From the NCBI GenBank assembly GCA_016928575.1, contig JAFGKK010000004.1, positions 1 through 37,592 of the forward strand: a stretch of DNA of 37,592 nt. Direction: 5' to 3'. Within the stretch, counting starts at the first letter, position 1. Every line of letters begins with the position of its first letter. The notes under the pieces were generated by a model, which saw only the letters and a program-made list of their open reading frames with translations, made no database searches and was not told where the DNA came from. The stretch comes from Anaerolineales bacterium (GTDB lineage: Bacteria > Chloroflexota > Anaerolineae > Anaerolineales > RBG-16-64-43). The translations under genes were made by a program, and so were the position numbers. This document shows positions 11,638-34,091 of this stretch, piece by piece.

Positions 11638-12765
11638 ATGCGCACCCGATTTTTCGAGGCAACCTCCCTGCTGTTTTTGGCGGCCGCGCTTTGCGCCTGC
11701 GGGCCGGAGGCCGCATCCGAAGCCACCATCTCTCCAACCGAAGAATCCGCCGCCACCCGGGAAGCTTCACCCACGTCGACCTTCACCCCGACCGCGGTTC
11801 CGACTCTTCCGCCCGCGTCGCCCATGCCGGGCCTGGTGTTCGCCGACGCCGATTCGATGAAGCGCATGATCGGGCCTTACCTGGTGGATGCGGACGGAGA
11901 GACCGTCCAACTCGCCGATAAACCGGATCCGGCCCTTTCTCCCGACCGCAAACAAGTGCTGTATTCCGGCGACGGAGACGTCTGGCTGCTGGATCTGGAT
12001 ACCGGAAAGACCCGCAACCTCACCAGGACCAAGGACCGCATGGAGCAGCAATACCAGTGGTGGCCGGCGCGTCCGGACCTGATCGTCTTCCATTTCCAAT
12101 ACGCCGAAGATCTCGGCCCGGCCGCCGGGTACCTCGCGACCATGAAACCGGACGGCACCAACGTGCTGCTTTTGGACGAGGAATTCCAATCCTTTTCGCC
12201 GGCCGCCCTCTCGCCCGACGGCCAGGCGATCGCCTTCGACCGCGCCGGCGAACCGTGGATCTACCATTACCTCGCGGGGAAAATGCCGGCCCTGCCGGCG
12301 ACCTTCACCGGTTACAAAAACGCCGCCAACCCCGCTTGGTCCCCCGACAGCCGGAAGATCGCCTGGCAGTTGTTCGGACTTCCCGGCGGACAAGACGGAT
12401 CGAGCGCCGTCGCGATCTTGGATTTCGACACCCTGACGGTGACCCAACTCCATACGTACCCGATCCTGGGCGGCGGGATCGGCAATAGGAACTTGGCGTG
12501 GAGCCCCGACGGCCGCTGGCTGGCGGTCGCCAATCCGGCGGAACGCACGGAGGACAAGAAGGTTTCGCTGTGGGTGCTGAGCCCTGACGGAACCGAGGAG
12601 CATCATCTCGGCGGCGGCGACCTGCCCGTCTGGTCTCCGGACGGATCCATGCTTCTCTATCATACCGATGCCGGCGTGTTCGCGGCGAACGCCGGGGAGT
12701 GGATTCCATTCCCGGTAACCCTTCCAAAGACCGCCCAGGTGATCGACTGGGTGGAGATCGCGTAG
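11638..12765 (+). CDS. lipoprotein with TolB-like beta-propeller
   Basis: The 375-residue protein starts with a lipoprotein signal (MRTRFFEATSLLFLAAALCAC, lipid on C21) and a Thr/Pro/Ser-rich linker (about 30-62) that holds the domain off the membrane. The rest is a beta-propeller of the TolB/PD40 type, with repeated blades ending in ALSPDRKQVLY, ALSPDGQAIAF, AWSPDSRKIAW, AWSPDGRWLAV and VWSPDGSMLLY. Such propellers bind proteins or ligands; no enzymatic residues are evident. ATG 11638 follows AAAGGAGA by six bases. The same blade type makes up the C-terminus of the exporter fusion at 31521. Confidence 0.85.
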   Translation: MRTRFFEATSLLFLAAALCACGPEAASEATISPTEESAATREASPTSTFTPTAVPTLPPASPMPGLVFADADSMKRMIGPYLVDADGETVQLADKPDPALSPDRKQVLYSGDGDVWLLDLDTGKTRNLTRTKDRMEQQYQWWPARPDLIVFHFQYAEDLGPAAGYLATMKPDGTNVLLLDEEFQSFSPAALSPDGQAIAFDRAGEPWIYHYLAGKMPALPATFTGYKNAANPAWSPDSRKIAWQLFGLPGGQDGSSAVAILDFDTLTVTQLHTYPILGGGIGNRNLAWSPDGRWLAVANPAERTEDKKVSLWVLSPDGTEEHHLGGGDLPVWSPDGSMLLYHTDAGVFAANAGEWIPFPVTLPKTAQVIDWVEIA

Positions 12766-19436: not shown

Positions 19437-19823
19437 TCAGGCGTCATGCTTACGGCATTTCGAACAGGTTCCGAACAGGATCAGATGGTTGGTCGCCACA
19501 CGGAACGAACACGCCTTCTCGATCCGATCGAACAATTCCCCCACCATGGCATGGTCCAGCGTGAGTATGCGCCCGCATTTCCGACAAACCAGATGATGGT
19601 GGATCCTGTCGCTCACCGCTTCATAGACCGACGCTCCGGTGCCCATGTCGGAAACGGAAATTTTGCCCGAGTCCGCAAGGCGTTCCAAAGCCCGATAGAC
19701 TGTGGAGGGGTTCATCGCCGGGAACCGCGGATGCATCCGCTGATACACCTCCTGCGCGGTGAGGTGATGGTGATCCTGATTGAGCAGATCGAGAATCGCC
19801 AGTTCGATGGAGGACGCCTTCAT
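19437..19823 (-). CDS. Fur-family metal-responsive repressor
   Basis: The 128-residue protein has the two-domain Fur layout. The N-terminal winged helix contains LTAQEVYQRM and the recognition-helix text NPSTVYRALERLADSGKI. The C-terminal dimer and metal domain contains RIHHHLVCRKCG and ends with CSKC, so both structural-zinc cysteine pairs are present. The metal sensed (Fe, Zn, Mn, or peroxide through PerR) cannot be read from sequence. It is transcribed away from the FmdE/ABC operon. The shared AT-rich gap holds several palindromes that suit a Fur-type operator, so it probably represses itself and the operon. ATG 19823 follows a weak AAAGGG site. Confidence 0.9.
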   Translation of the reverse strand: MKASSIELAILDLLNQDHHHLTAQEVYQRMHPRFPAMNPSTVYRALERLADSGKISVSDMGTGASVYEAVSDRIHHHLVCRKCGRILTLDHAMVGELFDRIEKACSFRVATNHLILFGTCSKCRKHDA

Positions 19824-19862
19824 AACGGCCCTTTCTTTCCTAGCTCTAATATACGCATTTTA

Positions 19863-19892
19863 TTGCATTTGCAATTATTTGCATTATAATGC
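19863..19892. promoter_or_regulatory. palindrome cluster, probable operator of the Fur-family regulator
   Basis: Three overlapping inverted repeats lie in 30 AT-rich bases: TTGCA-TT-TGCAA (19863-19874), TGCAA-TTAT-TTGCA (19870-19883) and the perfect palindrome GCATTATAATGC (19881-19892), which contains a TATAAT box. Their place between a Fur-family gene and a metal-transport operon suggests regulator binding; this is inference. Confidence 0.5.
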
Positions 19893-20111
19893 GGTTCGTT
19901 TGGAAACCAGCAATCCGTCGCCCTTCTAGCAAATATGCCCGTCTGCAGTAATTTTACTCATCCATTATCACACAAGGGGATGGAAAACCTGCCCGGAAAT
20001 TCCGGGAAGGTATTGGGCTGGATGCACCCGAACCCGGAGCGGCTTTCCATATGCCGGTCCGGCCAAGGCAGAATAAATCCACAACCAGAGCCGCACACAG
20101 GAGAATTGGCG
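19893..20111. other. long leader of the FmdE/ABC operon
   Basis: Counted from the TATAAT at 19885-19890, the leader is more than 200 bases long. It contains a perfect hairpin, CCCGGAA/TTCCGGG (19992-20006), and further GC-rich inverted pairs (CCGG near 20057 and 20065). The frame from 19935 is open into the FmdE gene, but its residues do not look like protein. No known riboswitch consensus was recognised. Confidence 0.35.
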
Positions 20112-20714
20112 ATGGTGATAGATATTCCTTCGGTTCAGGCTTTCCACGGCCACATGTGTCCGGGCCTGGCGACCGGCATCCGGGTGTCGGAGCAAGCCTT
20201 GCGGGAGATGGGTCCGCGTCCCGGCGACGAGGAAGTTGTGGCGGTCGTGGAGACCGACAACTGCGCGGTGGACGCGATCCAATTCCTCACCAGATGCACC
20301 TTCGGCAAGGGCAACCTGATCCATCTGGATTACGGCAAGAACGCCTTTCGCTTTTTCCGCCGGTCGGATGGAAAAGCCATCCGCATCCGGGTCCGTTCGG
20401 AGGATAAATGCCCGCACCAGGCGGAAGAGGACCGTCTGCGGGAACATGCGCGCACCGGGAAGGCGGGCGGAGCGGAACGCATGGAAGCGGCTGCGCTCCG
20501 CGCCCGGCGGATCGAATGGATCCTCTCCGCCCCGCTGGCCGACCTGGTCGAAGTGCAACCCATCGAAGCTTCCCGCCCGCCGCGCGCGCGGATTTTCAAT
20601 TCGATCGCCTGCGCGCAGTGCGGCGAGCGGACGATGGAAACCCGCCTGCGCATGCTGGAAGGGAAAGCCCTGTGTCCGGAATGCTTCGAACAGGCCGTCC
20701 TTCGCGGGAAGTAG
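20112..20714 (+). CDS. FmdE-family protein with C-terminal zinc ribbon
   Basis: The 200-residue protein carries the FmdE signature: FHGHMCPGLATGIR near residue 12 and VETDNCAVDAIQFLTRCTFGKGNL around 46-70. These conserved His and Cys residues probably bind metal. A helical linker leads to a zinc ribbon, CAQCGE and CPEC. FmdE was named after a formylmethanofuran dehydrogenase (Mo/W enzyme) subunit, but stand-alone copies occur widely in anaerobic bacteria next to metal transporters, and their role is unknown. ATG 20112 follows AGGAGA by eight bases and matches the family start. It opens a five-gene operon, with TrmO 13 bases downstream. Confidence 0.88.
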   Translation: MVIDIPSVQAFHGHMCPGLATGIRVSEQALREMGPRPGDEEVVAVVETDNCAVDAIQFLTRCTFGKGNLIHLDYGKNAFRFFRRSDGKAIRIRVRSEDKCPHQAEEDRLREHARTGKAGGAERMEAAALRARRIEWILSAPLADLVEVQPIEASRPPRARIFNSIACAQCGERTMETRLRMLEGKALCPECFEQAVLRGK

Positions 20715-20727
20715 ATCCGAGGCGTAC

Positions 20728-21192
20728 ATGCTACTTGCCACGTTCGTCGCAATCCAGAGCCTGTACAAGACCTGCGGGGATGCCCCCCGCCAGGGAAGGC
20801 TCTCGGACGGGATGCAAGTGGTGGAAGTTTTTGCAGAATACGCCGCCGGGCTTGAGGGGATCGAGCAAGCCGCCCGTCTGATCGTGCTGTATTGGGGAGA
20901 TAGGGCCAAGCGCAACTTCCCGCGAGCGAGTCCCCCGTTCCATCCACATCCGGTCGGAGTATTCGCCAGCCGGTCGCCCAACCGTCCAAATCCCATCGCC
21001 TTATGCATTGCGGACTTGGTCAAACGGGATGGAAACCAACTTACCGTTCGCGGCGTAGATGCCCTGGACGGACGCCCTCTTTTGGACTTGAAACCCAATT
21101 CCCCGTCCCTAGATTTCTTTCCTGAACCCAGAACGCCAAGGACGCACCCCGATGATAGAACGGCACCGGCGGAGGGCTTCGGCGATGGCTGA
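20728..21192 (+). CDS. TrmO/TsaA-family protein (tRNA t6A37 methyltransferase-like)
   Basis: The 154-residue protein matches the TrmO (YaeB/VirR) fold, which in E. coli uses S-adenosylmethionine to methylate N6-threonylcarbamoyladenosine-37 of tRNA-Thr. Landmarks are APRQGRL, VGVFASRSPNRPNPIALC and VRGVDALDGRPLLDLKP. It lacks the extra C-terminal domain of the E. coli enzyme. Members placed in metal or molybdopterin clusters of anaerobes may do something other than tRNA modification. The start ATG 20728 follows GAGG by about seven bases. The last eight bases overlap the permease gene, and the C-terminal 25 residues look unstructured. Confidence 0.82.
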   Translation: MLLATFVAIQSLYKTCGDAPRQGRLSDGMQVVEVFAEYAAGLEGIEQAARLIVLYWGDRAKRNFPRASPPFHPHPVGVFASRSPNRPNPIALCIADLVKRDGNQLTVRGVDALDGRPLLDLKPNSPSLDFFPEPRTPRTHPDDRTAPAEGFGDG

Positions 21193-22273
21193 TAATTCCG
21201 TGGTCTCCGCCCGGCCGACTTCCGCCTCCGAAGCGTTCCTCCGGTCTTCGGCCCGTAAACGGCTGATCATCCTCGGGCTGGCGCTGTTCACCTTGCTGTT
21301 GGCGGTGTTTGCCATCCACGCCGGAGCCGCCCAGACCACGCCGCTGCAGGTCCTGCGGGCGCTGCTTCACTTGGATACGGGCATATCGAACGTCGTGATC
21401 TGGAACATCCGCCTGCCGCGCATTCTGGCCGCGATTGCCGCCGGGGCCGGGCTGGCGGTCGCCGGTTGCGTTATGCAAACCTGTCTGCGCAACCCGCTGG
21501 CCTCTCCGTCCACCTTGGGCATCTCCAACGCCGCTGCCTTCGGCGCCAACCTGGCGATCGTCTTCTTCGGCGCCGGCACCATCCACAGCACGACGCAGGA
21601 CGCCGTGTCCATCGGCAACCCGTACCTGGTCACCGTGACCGCCTTCCTTTTCTCCATGATCGCCATGACTCTGATTCTGCTCCTGGCGCGCCTGCGGGGA
21701 TTTTCCCCCGAATCGGTCGTGCTGGCTGGCGTCGCCTTCGGCTCGCTGTTCACCGCCGGCTCCACGCTGGTCCAGTACTTCGCACAGGACGTGCAGGTTG
21801 CGGCGATGGTGTTTTGGACCTTCGGCGACCTGGGGCGCATGGCCTGGCGGGAGATCGCGATCCTGGCGATCCTGACCGGCGTTTCCTCCGTGTACTTTCT
21901 GCTTCGCCGGTGGGATTACAACGCCCTCGACAGCGGCGACGACACCGCCGCCGGCCTCGGCGTGCGCGTGGATCGGATCCGCTTCCTCAGCATGCTGGCG
22001 GCCTCGTTGGTCACGGCCGTCGCGGTTTCCTTCATGGGCATCATCGGCTTCATCGGGTTAATCGCCCCGCACATGATGCGCCGGGTGGTGGGAGTCGACC
22101 ACCGCTTCCTGATCCCGGCCTCCGCCGTGGCGGGCGCGGCGCTGCTGCTCCTTTCCGATACATTGGCGCGGACAGTCGTCTCGCCGGTCGTTTTACCGGT
22201 CGGCGTGCTGACCTCCTTCTTCGGCGCGCCGCTGTTCCTCTTCTTGCTGGCCAAGGGATACGCCAAACAGTGA
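21185..22273 (+). CDS. FecCD-type ABC transporter permease
   Basis: The 362-residue inner-membrane protein has about ten helices and the conserved features of the FecCD/BtuC family: RLPRILAAIAAGAGLAVAGCVMQ, NPLASPSTLGISNAAAFGA, and GFIGLIAPHMMRRVVGVDHR with LLLLSDTLAR near the C-terminus. Two copies form the channel that imports iron chelates, haem, cobalamin or molybdate/tungstate in this class. I chose ATG 21185 because GGAGGG lies nine bases upstream; ATG 21152 is possible and adds 11 residues. It overlaps the TrmO gene by eight bases and the ATPase gene by four, so the operon is translationally coupled. Confidence 0.92.
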   Translation: MADNSVVSARPTSASEAFLRSSARKRLIILGLALFTLLLAVFAIHAGAAQTTPLQVLRALLHLDTGISNVVIWNIRLPRILAAIAAGAGLAVAGCVMQTCLRNPLASPSTLGISNAAAFGANLAIVFFGAGTIHSTTQDAVSIGNPYLVTVTAFLFSMIAMTLILLLARLRGFSPESVVLAGVAFGSLFTAGSTLVQYFAQDVQVAAMVFWTFGDLGRMAWREIAILAILTGVSSVYFLLRRWDYNALDSGDDTAAGLGVRVDRIRFLSMLAASLVTAVAVSFMGIIGFIGLIAPHMMRRVVGVDHRFLIPASAVAGAALLLLSDTLARTVVSPVVLPVGVLTSFFGAPLFLFLLAKGYAKQ

Positions 22274-23022
22274 TCCTCACCGTGCAGGGCATCCGGTTCG
22301 CCTACCCCAGCCGCCCGGTCTTGGACGACGCCACATTCACGGCGAAAAAAGGCGAACTGGTGGCCGTGCTTGGAACCAACGGCACAGGCAAGACAACCCT
22401 CTTGAAGTGCATCAACCGCATCCTCAAACCGTCGGCGGGGGCGGTGTTCGTCGGCGGGGAATCGGCGGCCGCGCTCGGACGCAACGCGCTCGCGCAAAGG
22501 ATCGGCTATGTGGAACAGCAACGTTCGGCCTCGCGCGCAACGGTGTTCAATGCCGTGCTGCTCGGCCGCAAACCCTATATCCGCTGGGACATCACCCACC
22601 ACGACACCGCCGTCGCCGAAAAGGCTCTGGAAACGCTCGGGATGTCCGGCTACGCCTTGCGCTTCCTGGATGAACTCAGCGGGGGCGAACTGCAGAAAGT
22701 CATCATCGCCCGGGCGCTGGCCCAGGAGCCGGAAGTCCTCTTGATGGACGAGCCGACCAGCAGTTTGGACTTGAGAAACCAGCTCGAGGTATTGCGGCTG
22801 ATCCGGGAGATCACCCGTAATCGCGGCCTCGCCGCCGTGATGGCGATGCACGACCTCAACCTGGCGCTCCGTTTTGCCGACCAATTCCTGTTCCTAAAAG
22901 ACCGGAAAATCTTCGCGGCGGGCGGCCCGGAAGTCGTCACGCCGCAGACCGTCGAAGCGGTGTACTCCGTGCCGGTCACGATCGCCTCGCACGACGGCCG
23001 CCGCGTCATCATTCCGCTGTGA
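22270..23022 (+). CDS. ABC transporter ATPase of the FecE/BtuD type
   Basis: The 250-residue cytoplasmic ATPase drives the FecCD permease. Walker A is GTNGTGKTT, the Q-loop lies near GYVEQQR, the ABC signature is LSGGELQKV, Walker B is VLLMDEPTSSLD, and the H-loop is AMHDLN. The start is GTG 22270, sharing GTGA with the permease stop (TGA 22271-22273); no better start with a ribosome binding site lies downstream. The order permease, ATPase, binding protein agrees with iron-siderophore and related clusters. Confidence 0.94.
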   Translation: MILTVQGIRFAYPSRPVLDDATFTAKKGELVAVLGTNGTGKTTLLKCINRILKPSAGAVFVGGESAAALGRNALAQRIGYVEQQRSASRATVFNAVLLGRKPYIRWDITHHDTAVAEKALETLGMSGYALRFLDELSGGELQKVIIARALAQEPEVLLMDEPTSSLDLRNQLEVLRLIREITRNRGLAAVMAMHDLNLALRFADQFLFLKDRKIFAAGGPEVVTPQTVEAVYSVPVTIASHDGRRVIIPL

Positions 23023-23060
23023 CGCGGCCCGCTCCAAATTCATCCTGCAGGAGGAAATCC

Positions 23061-24173
23061 ATGGCAAGAAGAGTTCGAATGGCGTGGTTGCTGACGATCC
23101 CGGCGCTGCTTGCGTTGTGCGGATGCGGCGCCGCGGAGCAGACCGCCGGTCAAACAGTCGAGGTCACCGACCTGTTGGGGCGGAGGGTATCCGTCCCGGC
23201 CTCCGTAAGGAGCGTGGTTGCCATCGGCCCGGGCGCGCTCCGCCTGTATGTCTACGCCGGAGATCTGCAGTACGTCGCCGGGGTGGAACAGGTGGATATC
23301 CACGACGTCAGCGGCAAACCCTACATCCTGGCCAACCCTTCGCTCTCGCAGTTGCCGGTGATCGGACTCGGAGGCCCGAACAACGCCCCGGATCCCGAAA
23401 AACTTCTGGCTGTCAAGACGCAGGTCATCTTCAGCACATACGCGCAGGACGCGGAGGCGGCCGATGAACTGCAGGACCAAACCGGCATCCCGGTGGTAGT
23501 CCTCAGCTATGGATCACAAGGCTTCGGCGTCACGTCGATCTTCGGCCAGCCGATACAGGACTCTCTCCGTCTGATAGGCCGGATCACCGGAGAAACCGCC
23601 AAATCCGAAGCGGCGATCGCCTTCCTCTTGGACAGTCAACGGGATTTGTCGAACCGGACCGAGGATATCCCGGAGGACGGCAAACCCTCCGTGTACATCG
23701 GTGGATTGGGTTCCCAGGGACTGCACGGAATGGAAAGCACACAAGGTCGCTACGCCCTTTTGGATGTCCTTCACGCTAAAAACGTCGTGGACGAAACCGG
23801 CAAGAGCGGCGCGATGATGGTCGACAAGGAGCAACTGCTCGAATGGGATCCGGAGTACCTTTTCCTCGACATGTTGGGGTACGCCTCGGTTTTGGAGGAT
23901 TACCGGAAAAATACCGCCTTCTATGAATCGCTTTCCGCGGTCCGTAACGGAAGGGTCTACTCCCAGCTGCCGTACAATTACTACTCCACCAACCTCGACA
24001 CCGCCATCGCGGACGCGTATTACCTCGGTAAGATCCTATTCCCGGAAGCTTTTGCGGACATCGATCCTGCGGAAAAGGCGGACGAGATCTACCTGGCGCT
24101 GCTGGGGCAACCGGTGTACGACAAAATGACCGCTTCCTTCGGCGGATTCCGGCAACTGCAGTTGGGGGATTGA
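23061..24173 (+). CDS. substrate-binding lipoprotein of the FecCD-type transporter
   Basis: The 370-residue protein has a lipoprotein signal (MARRVRMAWLLTIPALLALCGC) and a class III (BtuF/FepB-like) periplasmic-binding fold. Evidence includes VTDLLGRRVSVPASVRSVVAIGP, APDPEKLLAVKTQVIFST and VRNGRVYSQLPYNYYSTNLDTAIADAYYLGKIL. It captures the substrate outside and docks on the permease. The ligand cannot be assigned; the tyrosine-rich YNYYSTN segment and HGMESTQGRY could contribute metal or oxyanion ligands. ATG 23061 follows AGGAGGA by six bases. It is the last gene of the operon and is followed by a strong terminator. Confidence 0.9.
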   Translation: MARRVRMAWLLTIPALLALCGCGAAEQTAGQTVEVTDLLGRRVSVPASVRSVVAIGPGALRLYVYAGDLQYVAGVEQVDIHDVSGKPYILANPSLSQLPVIGLGGPNNAPDPEKLLAVKTQVIFSTYAQDAEAADELQDQTGIPVVVLSYGSQGFGVTSIFGQPIQDSLRLIGRITGETAKSEAAIAFLLDSQRDLSNRTEDIPEDGKPSVYIGGLGSQGLHGMESTQGRYALLDVLHAKNVVDETGKSGAMMVDKEQLLEWDPEYLFLDMLGYASVLEDYRKNTAFYESLSAVRNGRVYSQLPYNYYSTNLDTAIADAYYLGKILFPEAFADIDPAEKADEIYLALLGQPVYDKMTASFGGFRQLQLGD

Positions 24174-25861: not shown

Positions 25862-27424
25862 ATGAAAAAGGGAATGAGATTTCTTCCATTGTTTCTCACC
25901 GCAACCGCCTGTTCGCTTTCCCCTTCGGCCGGGAACGCCACCGAGGAAAAAACAAACTTACCAACTGTCCGCGCCGAAACGGCGGCGACCGGCGGCTTCC
26001 CACCCGCCCCAGCCGGAACCGATCTTCCCGCCCCGTCCGACGCCGCCTGTACGTTGTACGTTTCCACCGACGGCGACGACTCCGGCCCCGGCACCGAGAG
26101 CCGGCCGTGGGCCACCTTCGAGCGCGCGGCTGACGGCGCCGAACCGGGTGACGTCGTCTGCTTCCGCGGCGGCGTGTATGCGTCCGAGGAAACGCACTTC
26201 TCCCGTTCCGGAACAGCCGAGGCGCCCATCACCTTCCGCGCCGCTCCCGGCGAGATCCCCATCCTGGACGGCGGGGGCGAGGCCGCGGGATTGCTGACTC
26301 TGGACGCGGGCGCCTCATACCTGCGGATCAGCGGTTTTTCCCTGCGCGGATTCACCATCTGGGGGGTAACACTCTCCGGCGAGAACCGGCATGTCTATCT
26401 CGACCATCTGGAGATCAGCGGCGGGGAAGCCGCCGTACACTTCACTTACGGTGAGACGGAAGGCGCGCCGGAAGAAGGCCCGGTCGAGCACATCACGCTG
26501 GAAGATAGTGTCATTCATGGCAGCGAGTTTTCGGCCGTCGACTGCACGCCCGGCCCCTGCGACCACATGACCGTCCGCCGGGTGGAAATCTACGGCACCG
26601 GCCTATCCGGGGAAGCGTTCTACGGATCGGACGGATTGGAGTTCGCCCGCGGCTACCCGGTGCTGATCGAGGATTGTTATATCCATGACAACGGAGGCGA
26701 CGGGATTGATTTAAATTCCCGCGACCGCGCCGGAAACGCCGCGGGCGTAATCGTGCGACGCAACCGCGTGGTGCGCAACCACCTCAACGGAATCAAACTG
26801 TGGGCCGGGGGTCTGATGGAGGACAACATCATCTGGGGCCAGGGCAACAGCGCGGTCTGGGTGGGAGTCTTTCCCTCCACCGTCGACGTGCTACACAACA
26901 CCGTCGCCTACAACATGTGGGATCTATCCTTCAGCCAACGCAACTGGTCGTTTGTCGCCGGGTATCCGGAGGAGATGGATTCCCCATCGGTGCAACTGAC
27001 GCTCCTCAGCAACATCTTCGCCTTCAACGCCGGTCCGCTGGAAGGCGGGCCGACCGGCATCTACCTCGGGCCGGGAGTGGTGCTGTTACACGAAGGAGAC
27101 AACGTGTTTTACAGCCGTGCAGACGGCGAGATCACAGCCGAATTCGCAACCGGACGGGATGCGGATTTCACTCGGGCCGAGATCACCGACGGAACCTGGG
27201 CCGCCTTCACCGGGTTCGGGGAAGGCGATCTGACCGTGGATCCGCTGTTTCTTTCCGGATGGCCGGACGCGGACCTGCGGTTGCATGCGGACAGCCCGGC
27301 CGCGGGCCGCGGGGCGCGGGGCGCGCCGATAATCCTCCGGGACCGCTTTACAAATGCCGGGAAACGCCGCCAAGACCGCCTTAACGCCGCGGCTTCGCCG
27401 GCGGCAATCCCGGCCAACCCCTAA
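25862..27424 (+). CDS. secreted right-handed beta-helix protein
   Basis: The 520-residue protein has an export signal (MKKGMRFLPLFLTATACSLS, possibly a lipoprotein with lipobox TATAC) and a low-complexity linker. Next comes a YVSTDGDDSGPGTESRPWATFERA segment, the usual opening of pectate-lyase-like and DUF1565 beta-helix proteins. Repeating coils follow (LRISGFSLRGFTIWGV, VYLDHLEISGG, ITLEDSVIHG, GVIVRRNRVVRNHLNGIKLW), as in parallel beta-helices that bind or cleave polysaccharide. Catalytic residues cannot be assigned. ATG 25862 follows AGGAAG by seven bases. Its stop overlaps that of the convergent ZIP gene by four bases. Confidence 0.82.
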   Translation: MKKGMRFLPLFLTATACSLSPSAGNATEEKTNLPTVRAETAATGGFPPAPAGTDLPAPSDAACTLYVSTDGDDSGPGTESRPWATFERAADGAEPGDVVCFRGGVYASEETHFSRSGTAEAPITFRAAPGEIPILDGGGEAAGLLTLDAGASYLRISGFSLRGFTIWGVTLSGENRHVYLDHLEISGGEAAVHFTYGETEGAPEEGPVEHITLEDSVIHGSEFSAVDCTPGPCDHMTVRRVEIYGTGLSGEAFYGSDGLEFARGYPVLIEDCYIHDNGGDGIDLNSRDRAGNAAGVIVRRNRVVRNHLNGIKLWAGGLMEDNIIWGQGNSAVWVGVFPSTVDVLHNTVAYNMWDLSFSQRNWSFVAGYPEEMDSPSVQLTLLSNIFAFNAGPLEGGPTGIYLGPGVVLLHEGDNVFYSRADGEITAEFATGRDADFTRAEITDGTWAAFTGFGEGDLTVDPLFLSGWPDADLRLHADSPAAGRGARGAPIILRDRFTNAGKRRQDRLNAAASPAAIPANP

Positions 27425-28152
27425 AGCGATTTTGACAATACGATGAACATGGCCAACCCCACCCCGCCCAAGAACGCATAGCTGGAATGTTTTTCTTCCT
27501 CCGCCCTTGCCTTCGGCAAAAGATGGGATGCCGAAATATAAATTAGCACGCCGGAAACGAAACCCAGGATCAAGCCCAAATTTTCCGGGCTGAGCTTGTG
27601 TATCAAGGGATAGGCCAAAAACGCCCCCAAAGGCGTGGTCAGGCCCGCCACCAGTAGGGCGTACAGCATGGCGGTTCTTTCTTTGACGCCCGCCTTTAGA
27701 AACACCGTGTAGGTGATGATTCCCTCGGCGAGTTCATGAATGACTAAACCCAGGGCGGCCAAAAAACCGGTCAGGATGCTGATGCTGAACGTCACCGTAT
27801 AGATCACGCCGTCGATGAACGAATGGATGCCGATGCCCTCGGCCGCCACGATCCCGAAGGCCAGGGATTCCGTTTGAGTCCGTTTTTTAATCAAATCATT
27901 GGAAAAAAACATGAACAGGAACCCCAGCAGGGCGGTAAACCCCGCATAGGTGTTTTTTTCGACGGCTTGAGGCAGAGCAAGCATCAAGGGAGTCGAGATC
28001 AATACGCCGGAGGCAAAACACATAAACAGGGTTTTCACCCTTTCCGCCCAGCTTCGGTGGTAATGCAGCAGCAATATACCCACACCGTTCACGAGCGCCG
28101 AAAGAACCGCAAACACGGCGATCCAGAGAAACGTCATGGTTTCGATAGCCAT
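27421..28152 (-). CDS. ZIP-family metal transporter
   Basis: The 243-residue membrane protein has about eight helices and the ZIP metal-site motifs in the fourth and fifth helices, EGIGIHSFIDGV and VIHELAEG, which bind zinc, iron or manganese and import it. The cytoplasmic loop before them is short and not histidine-rich. ATG 28152 follows AGGAGG by five bases. Upstream on the same strand, about 200 bases away, lies a Fur-family regulator, so both may be controlled by the palindrome at 28801-28821, with zinc the most likely metal. Its end overlaps the convergent beta-helix gene. Confidence 0.92.
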   Translation of the reverse strand: MAIETMTFLWIAVFAVLSALVNGVGILLLHYHRSWAERVKTLFMCFASGVLISTPLMLALPQAVEKNTYAGFTALLGFLFMFFSNDLIKKRTQTESLAFGIVAAEGIGIHSFIDGVIYTVTFSISILTGFLAALGLVIHELAEGIITYTVFLKAGVKERTAMLYALLVAGLTTPLGAFLAYPLIHKLSPENLGLILGFVSGVLIYISASHLLPKARAEEEKHSSYAFLGGVGLAMFIVLSKSL

Positions 28153-28350: not shown

Positions 28351-28788
28351 TTACTCCGTCTTCCGGCACCTCGGACACAACCCGGACAGTTCCAACCAAT
28401 GCCCCCGGACCGCGTATCCGGTGCGGCGCTGAACGGATTTGATCAGCGCATCCAGATTGCAGCCCGGGAATTCCATCACCGCCCGGCACCGATCGCAGAC
28501 GATGTGATGGGCATGACCCGCGCTGGCGGGGGCGTAGGAGTGGCAGCCGTCCACGCGGTGCATCTTGCGGACATGCCCGCATCCCGCCAGCACCTCCAGG
28601 GCGCGGTAGACGGTGACCAGCCCGGTCTTGGGATAGTACCGCCGGGCGCGCCGAAGGATTTGGTCCGGGGTGAGGCTGGTGGGGGTTTCGGCCAGCACGC
28701 GGATCACCGCCCGGCGCGGAGCGGTTAACCGGTGGCCTTCCTTATGCAGATCGGCGGTCCATAACCCGATACGGTCGGAGGCGTCCAA
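28351..28788 (-). CDS. Fur/Zur-family metal-responsive repressor
   Basis: The 145-residue protein has a Fur-type winged helix (GHRLTAPRRAVIRVLAE, then TGLVTVYRALEVLAG) and a C-terminal metal domain. The latter holds CHSYAPASAGHAHHIVCDRC and the closing CPRC, which form the zinc-binding sites. It differs clearly from the other Fur-family protein at 19437, and its closeness to a ZIP transporter favours a Zur-like zinc role; that is inference. The start is TTG 28788, six to seven bases after AAGGAAA; no ATG lies at a sensible place. The palindrome at 28801-28821 is immediately upstream, so it likely represses itself. Confidence 0.88.
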   Translation of the reverse strand: MDASDRIGLWTADLHKEGHRLTAPRRAVIRVLAETPTSLTPDQILRRARRYYPKTGLVTVYRALEVLAGCGHVRKMHRVDGCHSYAPASAGHAHHIVCDRCRAVMEFPGCNLDALIKSVQRRTGYAVRGHWLELSGLCPRCRKTE

Positions 28789-28800
28789 GGGCGATTTCCT

Positions 28801-28821
28801 TATTGAAAATATTTTTCAATA
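28801..28821. promoter_or_regulatory. Fur-type operator
   Basis: TATTGAAAA (28801-28809) and TTTTCAATA (28813-28821) are perfect inverted arms around TAT. The size and TGAAAA/TTTTCA core resemble Fur, PerR and Zur boxes. It sits 12 bases upstream of the Fur-family start codon. Confidence 0.65.
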
Positions 28822-31162: not shown

Positions 31163-31520
31163 CCAAATCCACTGCCAAGGCGCAAAGAATACATAGGTTT
31201 TTCCCTCCGTGGACCCTTGTTCTTTAGTGATATGAAAAAACAAATCCACGGAGGGCACGGAGTTGCACGGATTGTCATAATCCTCTGTGTCTCTCTGTGT
31301 TTCTCCGTTCCCCTCCGTGTTTTCCGTGGAAAATTATAATGATTGATTCTCGCGAAGCCTTCGGGAACGGCGCAGGGAGTGTAGGCACCGGGCACGCTTT
31401 CAGAAAGAATGGCCGGATGTACGCCTCCCGAGAAAACTTGGGAACCCGCCGGAATGATGTTAAGATGAGGGCGAAGCACACCGGCCGACTCTGCTCTCAG
31501 GCCGTCAAGGGATCCTCCGA
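31163..31520. other. repeat-rich gap with a large inverted repeat
   Basis: This gap contains low-complexity text (CCTCTGTGTCTCTCTGTG) and an inverted pair, CCCTCCGTGGA (31203-31213) and TCCACGGAGGG (31245-31255), with a 31-base loop. A TATAAT box at 31335-31340 lies about 180 bases ahead of the next gene. I see no coding sequence and no recognisable metal riboswitch. Confidence 0.5.
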
Positions 31521-34091
31521 ATGTCCAATGGGCGCATGCGATCGAAGCCGGAACGAAACCGCGCACCCGGGTTTCTGACCGCGCTTTTCCTGGCTTTGCT
31601 GGCATCGATTCACCCCGCGGCGCCGGCGCAGGCGCATCCGCTGGATATGTTCTTTTTTTCCCACGAGGTTCACCTCTCCCCGGAAAAGATCGAAATCCAT
31701 ACGACGGTCCGCCCCGGCCCGTTAATGGCGCTCTCGGAATGGTATCGGCTGGATACCGACCTGAACGGCGAGGTCTCGCCGAAGGAAATCACCTACTGGG
31801 CTTCCGCGCGGATCGACGCGTTGTCGCTCGCACTCGACGGCGCGGGCGAAATCCCGTTGACGATGATTTCGGTGGGTTGGCCTTCGTCGGCGGAAGCCGT
31901 GCAGCTCGGCGAGGAATCGTTCCGCTTCGCCGCACGGGCGGAATGGCCCGCCGCCGAAATGGGCGGTTCGGAAACCCGCCGCCTGGAACTGCACTTCCGC
32001 TACGAAGAGGAGCGCGGATACAATTGGTTTTTCCTGCACGGCGAAGACGGCATCGGCTTCACAACTCCGCTGCAAACCAACGGCCGGCTGTCGGTCGACC
32101 TCCGCGCCGCTACGGGTTTGTTCTCCCCCGCCCCCGGAATGACATATTGGGACAGCGGGTCGCCGGCCCTGGGCTCCCCCGAGGAGAGCTCGGCGGCCGG
32201 ACCGACGGATCCCTACGGCGTCGTTGCGGTCCTGACCGATTGGATCCGCACGCCGGAATCGACCGCGGCGTTCTACCTGGGGGCTGTCTTGCTGACCCTG
32301 TTTCTGGGGGCCGTCCATGCCCTCACCCCGGGGCACGGGAAAACCCTCACCGCAGCGTATCTGATCGGTGAGCGCGGGACGGCCGGCCACGCGATCACAC
32401 TCGGCGGCATCGTCACCGCGACCCATACGGGATCGGTGCTGGTGTTCGGCATGGTTACGCTGGCCGTCTCGCAATTCCTGGTCCCCGCGGATTTCTTCCC
32501 GTTTTTGGAATTGTTCAGCGGACTGTTGATCATTGCGCTGGCGGTTAACCTGATTCTTCCGCGTTGGCGGGGGTATCTGCGGGTACGGCGTGCGCGGGCT
32601 CGCGCGTCGAAGTCGGAAGCGAAGCCCACTCCCTCTGCATCGGCCGCCGAATCGTCCGTCCAACGGATTTCGGTCCAGGAGAGGGTTGAAACCCGGCCCT
32701 ACGATGCGCTGCTCCCCGGGGGCAACCGTCCGCCGGACACGCCAGGCGCACCAACGCGGCGGATGCTGTTCCTGCTGGGAATCAGCGGCGGACTGGTTCC
32801 CTGCCCGGATGCCGTCGCCATCCTGCTGGCTGCCGTCGCAATCAACCGCATCCCACTCGGTCTGATCTTGGTTGCCGCCTTCAGCGTGGGCATGGCCGCG
32901 GTGCTGATTTTAATCGGCCTGGCGGTGGTCCGCAGCCGTCGCTGGCTGGCCGGATTCGATCTGTTCTCCCGTGCGGCGCCGATTCTTTCTGTCGTCAGCG
33001 CAGGGGTCATCCTCGGAATGGGATTGATCCTCACAGCGGGGGTTGTCGTCCGGTACGGGATTCCGGAACCGGACCGCAGCACGGCGGCCGTAACTCCCCC
33101 GCCCGATTTCGATATCTCCTATGCCGGTATCCTGTACCTCTCCCCCGACGACCGCGGAAGAATGCAGGTGTACCGGCAATCCCCCATCCGCGGGGAACCT
33201 CGCCGGATCACCGATGCCGGGCAGGGGATTACGGATTACCGGCTTTCGCCCGACGGCTTGCACATCGGGTTTGCCTCCTCCGGAGGCGGGGGGTCCGGCG
33301 TTTGGATCGTCACGCTTCCGGAAGGGGAAACGCATCTGGCGGTGGATTGCGGAAACGACTACTGCAGCAACGTCCTTTGGGCGCCGGACGGCAGCCTGCT
33401 CTTGTACGAACGGACCGATTTAAACTCTCTCATTGCGGTCCCCACCTTATGGTCCTACGGCTTGGAGGACGGCGCAATCCAAACGGTTTTTCGCGATCCG
33501 CAGATCCCCGGCTACACCGCCAGTTGGTCGCCGAACGGCGATTGGCTGAGCTATTGGAGTTATCCGGGTTCGCCGGCGGTCGAGCTGTATAATTTGCGCA
33601 CCGGAGAACGGGATTCGATCGCCAGTCAGACCGGGCTGGCCGCCGTCTGGTCGCCGGACGGCGCCTCCCTGCTGTTTACCGACATGGTTGCCACCGCCGC
33701 GAGGACCGTCTGCCACCTATTCCGGTACGATCTGGAGGACGGCTCTTTGACCGACTTGAGTCTCCAAGGGAATACCGAAGATTTCGCCGGATCCTGGTCG
33801 CCGGATGGGGGTTGGCTGGGCGTCGTCCGCCGGGAGAACACGGAATCCTTCCCGGTGGGCACTCAAATATGGCTGATACGTCCGGACGGCGGCGATGCCC
33901 ATCCCGTCACGAAGACTCCGCACGTGTTTCATACCGGGATGCAATGGTCGCCCGACGGCCGTTATTTGCTTCTCCAGCAGCATGGGACGGGAATCGATCA
34001 TCCGCAAAGGGAAATCTGGTTGTTGGACATTCAGACCGGGGAATATACCCTGTTGATCGAGAACGCTTCCCAACCCGTTTGGGGGCCATGA
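31521..34091 (+). CDS. nickel/cobalt exporter-type membrane protein fused to a C-terminal beta-propeller
   Basis: The 856-residue protein has three parts. A signal segment (about 16-38, ending AQA-HP) leads to an extracytoplasmic domain with an EF-hand-like loop, DTDLNGEVSPKE. The membrane core (about 245-520) has NicO/RcnA-type motifs: AVHALTPGHGKTLTAAYLIGE and ATHTGSVLVFGMVTLAVSQF, then GISGGLVPCPDAVAILLAAVAINR. The linker between its halves lacks the histidine-rich stretch of RcnA. From about 540 a PD40/TolB-type propeller follows, with blades such as YRLSPDGLHIGF, ASWSPNGDWLSY and QWSPDGRYLLL. It may export a metal, with the propeller acting as sensor or partner-binding domain. Start ATG 31521 has only a weak ribosome binding site. 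Confidence 0.85.
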   Translation: MSNGRMRSKPERNRAPGFLTALFLALLASIHPAAPAQAHPLDMFFFSHEVHLSPEKIEIHTTVRPGPLMALSEWYRLDTDLNGEVSPKEITYWASARIDALSLALDGAGEIPLTMISVGWPSSAEAVQLGEESFRFAARAEWPAAEMGGSETRRLELHFRYEEERGYNWFFLHGEDGIGFTTPLQTNGRLSVDLRAATGLFSPAPGMTYWDSGSPALGSPEESSAAGPTDPYGVVAVLTDWIRTPESTAAFYLGAVLLTLFLGAVHALTPGHGKTLTAAYLIGERGTAGHAITLGGIVTATHTGSVLVFGMVTLAVSQFLVPADFFPFLELFSGLLIIALAVNLILPRWRGYLRVRRARARASKSEAKPTPSASAAESSVQRISVQERVETRPYDALLPGGNRPPDTPGAPTRRMLFLLGISGGLVPCPDAVAILLAAVAINRIPLGLILVAAFSVGMAAVLILIGLAVVRSRRWLAGFDLFSRAAPILSVVSAGVILGMGLILTAGVVVRYGIPEPDRSTAAVTPPPDFDISYAGILYLSPDDRGRMQVYRQSPIRGEPRRITDAGQGITDYRLSPDGLHIGFASSGGGGSGVWIVTLPEGETHLAVDCGNDYCSNVLWAPDGSLLLYERTDLNSLIAVPTLWSYGLEDGAIQTVFRDPQIPGYTASWSPNGDWLSYWSYPGSPAVELYNLRTGERDSIASQTGLAAVWSPDGASLLFTDMVATAARTVCHLFRYDLEDGSLTDLSLQGNTEDFAGSWSPDGGWLGVVRRENTESFPVGTQIWLIRPDGGDAHPVTKTPHVFHTGMQWSPDGRYLLLQQHGTGIDHPQREIWLLDIQTGEYTLLIENASQPVWGP

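Follow-up and report, generated by a model that had tools for sequence, protein, structure and literature searches.

A conserved NicO-type transporter fused to a beta-propeller in Anaerolineae, apparently an undescribed variant of a known metal permease type

In a stretch of 37,592 nucleotides of contig JAFGKK010000004.1 from a bacterium of the Anaerolineales (hereafter the window), one uninterrupted reading frame on the + strand (31521..34091, 856 aa) joins an N-terminal extracytoplasmic domain, a NicO membrane core and a PD40 beta-propeller. We consider this protein a real variant of a known transporter type, because its build is common to dozens of Anaerolineae and because genes of zinc or iron control lie beside half of the loci examined. 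The variant is apparently undescribed, judged from the open papers searched, in which no description of a protein combining NicO and a propeller was found. The sequence-only reading that started this work had called the architecture unusual, which holds for the literature searched and fails in the sense of a one-off, as the fusion is a conserved family in Anaerolineae.

A search of 101 genomes of the order, among them the window's own, returned six full-length relatives, and 84,980 species genomes, when scanned, yielded 77 loci with about sixty full-length fusions; the genomes concerned are mostly metagenome-assembled, often with cut flanks. All fusion loci come from records named Chloroflexota or Anaerolineae, and the junction is open in every full-length fusion, across different assemblies. 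A stop codon missed between 33060 and 33120, which had been named as the observation that would undo the fusion, is thus excluded, because 60 further fusions read through the junction, and two genes joined by such an error or by misassembly, for which no evidence emerged, have practically no chance of being the explanation. Relatives with the N-terminal domain and the NicO core, roughly 490-580 aa long and unfused, occur in Chloroflexota, Actinomycetota, Acidobacteriota, Nitrospirota and others. At two loci, L088 and L090, the fusion gene seemingly lies in two frames, from draft-assembly error or decay; the split falls within the propeller in L088 and within the N-terminal domain in L090. NicO proteins of Acidobacteriota and Latescibacterota (L102, 5968-8328; L103, 4070-6337; L106, 5932-8160) extend some 230-270 residues past the core without any Pfam family, next to genes that we take, from reading them, to be TPR-like and DUF4331-like.

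The protein probably starts five residues downstream of 31521, since a congener shares the ATG at 31536 and not the one at 31521. Upstream, the intergenic stretch 31180-31330 is rich in CCACGGAG/CTCCGTG repeats, which are partly kept in the congener. The signal segment (residues 1-39, 31521..31637, +) contains a modelled helix at residues 16-30 and ends near AHP, in a motif, AHP.D, that is conserved in 59-61 of 61 relatives. It is followed by the extracytoplasmic N-terminal domain (residues 38-246, 31632..32258, +), which AlphaFold2 builds from strands and helices with pLDDT mostly 85-96 to about residue 190. Within this domain the EF-hand loop DTDLNGEVSPKE (residues 78-89, 31752..31787, +) is canonical, with D, D/N, D/N and E at positions 1, 3, 5 and 12 in 61/61 relatives, and is flanked in the model by helices 67-77 and 87-100. 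The predicted EF-hand is probably a structural calcium site. No Pfam family was matched by the N-terminal domain of the window sequence. DUF1007 (PF06226) appeared below threshold in the N-terminal domains of 2 of 41 relatives (best E 0.0052) and not for the window, and a DUF1007 search of 151 Chloroflexota genomes gave no match and is uninformative, since no control rang either. DUF1007 is the family of the periplasmic protein ZevA, whose partner ZevB is NicO-like.

The membrane core (residues 249-511, 32265..33053, +) is NicO-like, as had been proposed: Pfam NicO (PF03824) scores 35.4 bits against a cut-off of 27.7 over residues 254-367, and the model shows six membrane helices (249-512), arranged as two halves that carry conserved motifs. 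These motifs are HALTPGHGKT (residues 266-275, 32316..32345, +) and GGLVPCPDA, whose PCPDA part spans residues 427-431 (32799..32813, +); H266, H272, K274 and C428 are present in 61/61 relatives and D430 in 60/61. The RcnA subfamily model NF007454 of NCBIfam is not reached (97.2 bits, cut-off 195). NicO is related to the DsbD family, and DsbD_2 of Pfam also gave a sub-threshold match (21.9 bits, cut-off 24.9). Between the two halves lies a basic, Pro/Ser-rich cytoplasmic linker (residues 351-412, 32571..32756, +), which, as the sequence-only reading had noticed, takes the place of the His-rich loop of RcnA and holds no histidine at all. Linkers with 0-1 histidines are found across the window, the congener, L032 and L033, and those of most other relatives carry 2-19; this loss in the window's clade suggests that metal preference or regulation has changed.

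The propeller (residues 530-856, 33108..34088, +) is seven-bladed by Pfam, model and fold alignment, with PD40 at 37.8 bits against a cut-off of 20.9. The model, computed with 61 relatives, reached a mean pLDDT of 81.9, with less certainty for the membrane region (block means about 59-92, linker apart), and places in order an N-terminal helix, the mixed N-terminal domain, membrane helices 249-512 interrupted by a disordered linker at 367-391, and the propeller at 530-856. Pfam and model thereby agree with the single-frame layout of signal segment, EF-hand domain, NicO core and PD40 propeller that had been read from the letters. Aligned with VIA-align, in effect for the propeller alone, the structure falls on S9-peptidase and other solved propellers with Z 21-29. 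An S9 peptidase, although suggested by the best fold matches, was rejected, as the chain ends at the propeller with no catalytic domain after it. A TolB/Tol-Pal role was also rejected, with the TolB model (TIGR02800) at 80.5 against 343 bits and no Omp85 match in the window's genome, where the control rang. Basic loops and the linker lie on one side in a positive-inside pattern. From this pattern, the signal segment and the six helices, the linker is predicted to face the cytoplasm, and both the N-terminal domain and the propeller the exterior, which upholds the earlier suggestion that the propeller lies outside the membrane. In the absence of an Omp85 match the host is a probable monoderm, and outside therefore means beyond its cell membrane.

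Within the propeller, the only conserved cysteines of interest form a CX4C pair (residues 610 and 615, 33348..33365, +), present in 60/61 relatives, and among the histidines only H804 recurs (50/61), with no conserved His cluster. C610 and C615 more likely form a disulfide. The label sensory and the ligand sensing once proposed for the propeller are unsupported, as nothing pointed to ligand sensing; partner docking, proposed alongside, is plausible.

Trees of cores and propellers, both made by a quick method, gather the 66 fused cores, out of 97 rows, into one group that contains just one unfused row, which amounts to two changes in all, and likewise cluster the fused propellers. Adjoining the latter is the separate, DUF1980-side propeller of locus L096 (SH-aLRT 98), with the other DUF1980-linked propellers on the opposite side. 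It is 35% identical to the fused propeller, compared with about 26-31% for other anchored propellers; another standalone propeller from the window's genome reaches about 29-30%. L096 itself encodes an unfused NicO protein and a separate propeller within 6 kb, in the company of genes for Fur, ArsP_1 and DUF1980. From the trees and this gene layout we infer that the propeller was captured about once, from the propeller family accompanying ArsP_1/DUF1980 permeases. The close likeness that had been seen to the lipoprotein encoded at 11638 proved merely ordinary, at 26% over 251 residues (E 1e-8, long branch in the propeller tree) against the 35% of L096. An unfused NicO gene (L137 and L095) nests within the fusion clade on a long branch and may have lost its propeller secondarily. 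Anchored Big_5-PD40 propeller genes stand directly after ArsP_1/DUF1980 permease genes in L009-L025 and others, and fur and znu genes follow some of these sets; the anchored propeller looks like a third subunit of the ArsP_1/DUF1980 permease.

The neighbourhoods of the fusion point to metals. A Fur, ZnuA/B, FeoB, DtxR or ZIP gene lies nearby in 32/64 fused loci versus 1/13 unfused ones, a count in which loci of related genomes are not independent, yet several clades with zinc-, iron- and ZIP-type gene content contribute; among the 32/64 fused loci without a metal neighbour, a number have short or cut flanks. Around the relatives' fusions, a Fur-family gene recurs directly downstream and a separate propeller gene directly upstream; ZnuA, an ABC ATPase, an ABC-3 permease, ArsP_1 and DUF1980 are recurrent neighbours as well. 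Another lineage has FeoA, FeoB and a DtxR-type regulator, with the fusion directly upstream of feoA in L066, L078 and L079. The fused loci contain 48 sites that match TGAAAATNATTTTCA with at most two mismatches, where base-composition shuffles predict 3. They stand chiefly in front of fur (14) and znuA (13), at short distance, and by this excess and placement they are likely Zur boxes. No Zur-like or DtxR-like box was recognised before the fusion genes and, as TGAAAATNATTTTCA precedes none of them, the fusion gene is probably not under Zur-box control. Boxes of the TGAAAATGATTTTCA type stand directly before fur or znuA in L003, L037, L043, L048, L051, L075, L093, L094 and others. This type of box is a candidate Zur box for Anaerolineae, and the fusion loci also offer a candidate layout of zinc loci for the class.

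The window holds metal genes of its own. A Zur-type Fur-family regulator (28351..28788, - strand) shares up to 44% identity with the Fur genes that adjoin the relatives' fusions, compared with about 26-30% with most of these for the other Fur gene of the window (19437-19823), and is followed by a ZIP-family, ZupT-like zinc transporter gene (27421..28152, -). Upstream of the regulator lies the Zur-like box TATTGAAAATATTTTTCAATA (28801..28821, unstranded), matching with one mismatch at 28804-28818, where 0.07 matches with at most two mismatches are expected; the congener preserves the outer arms of the box. The zur-zip pair is about 2.7 kb from the fusion, with a gene between that we presume from reading its sequence to be thrS, and the gene order fur, thrS, fusion, AlkD-type gene is the same in the congener. 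ZnuA gave no match in the window's genome, whose only ABC-3 match is the FecCD permease of the window. At 19437-24173 the second Fur gene faces an FmdE/zinc-finger gene, followed by this permease, an ABC ATPase and a metal-chelate-type binding protein, a set that marks a further locus of metal or B12 uptake in the window.

On balance, and by a modest preference, we read the fusion as a one-piece permease for divalent metal, most likely zinc here, whose propeller was acquired about once and serves at the outer face as a docking or metal-handling accessory, with efflux slightly favoured. The six NicO helices would form the pore through which a divalent metal moves, most likely zinc here, with an iron link in one sister lineage (FeoAB/DtxR). 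The EF-hand domain and the propeller would stand at the outer face and the linker that joins helices 3 and 4 in the cytoplasm, and the outside propeller may act as a docking or metal-handling module and not as a sensor. Precedents are AztD, an extracytoplasmic propeller able to hand on zinc and described as the first propeller in metal transfer (PMC6689063), and ZevAB, a second zinc uptake system (PMC3872050); prokaryotic genes of COG0523 subfamily 5 are also reported to lie in clusters with WD40-repeat genes and znuABC (PMC2770081). As to direction, efflux is slightly more likely than uptake, because the NicO family is classed as in-to-out (PMC4608589), because the relatives have a His-rich linker, which would fit the collecting of cytoplasmic metal, and because no Zur box precedes the fusion, which may fit a role other than uptake under starvation. 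In the class Anaerolineae as a whole, one propeller subfamily, often with CX4C, may serve two unrelated permeases, ArsP_1/DUF1980 as a separate anchored subunit and NicO as a fused part, handling or gating metal outside; this wider proposal is tentative.

The main competitor, clearly less probable than the reading above though a serious one, is a ZevAB-like importer, whose N-terminal domain and propeller would pick up metal on the outside and deliver it to the pore. The neighbours of the fusion argue for it, being mostly uptake systems and their regulators (ZnuABC/Zur, FeoAB/DtxR with the fusion directly ahead of feoA, and ZIP/Zur in the window), as do the growth of cells in low zinc that ZevAB, a second zinc uptake system, aids (PMC3872050) and the weak DUF1007 similarity described above. 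Against this, the in-to-out classification of NicO speaks for the opposite direction, the Zur-like boxes at zur and znuA have no counterpart at the fusion gene, unlike what a Zur-controlled importer would show, and the adjoining ArsP_1 permeases are related to efflux families. Improbable, by our estimate, is a propeller that itself binds zinc as a metallochaperone in the manner of AztD, which has a conserved disulfide and whose gene adjoins a zinc ABC importer (PMC6689063). The CX4C of the fused propeller and its similar gene company fit this idea, but AztD uses conserved His ligands where here H804 alone recurs, no AztD model of NCBIfam matched at E 0.1, and the cysteines are more simply taken as a disulfide. 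That the core is instead a DsbD-like thiol carrier reducing this CX4C is very improbable: the DsbD_2 match and the position of the CX4C outside would suit it, yet NicO exceeds its own cut-off and C428 is the sole conserved cysteine of the core, which therefore holds no thiol pair.

We return to the preferred reading, a metal permease with an accessory propeller, in comparing the fusion with known systems. Propellers working with metal transporters are hardly known, and a conserved permease that carries its own propeller, in Zur and DtxR neighbourhoods of a little-studied class, gives a concrete target for studying what a propeller contributes. RcnA of E. coli is the best-known NicO member; the fusion shares with this type the six-helix core with HALTPGHGKT and GGLVPCPDA and, in most relatives, the His-rich cytoplasmic linker, and differs by the added N-terminal EF-hand domain and C-terminal propeller and, in the window, by a linker without histidine. 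The unfused proteins of N-terminal domain and NicO core have the same layout and are 29-34% identical over both parts, without the propeller. The anchored Big_5-PD40 propellers, a number of them with CX4C, are the nearest kin of the fused propeller, yet they are encoded by a separate gene and have their own membrane anchor and an Ig-like domain. TolB has the same PD40 repeat type, with sequence matches at E 1e-10 to 1e-12, whereas the fusion stays far below the TolB cut-off and its genome, lacking an Omp85 match, would hence have no outer membrane for Tol-Pal. ZevAB of Haemophilus influenzae, a second zinc uptake system (PMC3872050, PMC8000910), differs in consisting of two proteins and in having no propeller. 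AztD resembles the fused propeller in being extracytoplasmic, in its conserved disulfide and in its zinc-importer neighbourhood, and differs in its 8 blades, its conserved His zinc sites and its nature as a free-standing protein (PMC6689063).
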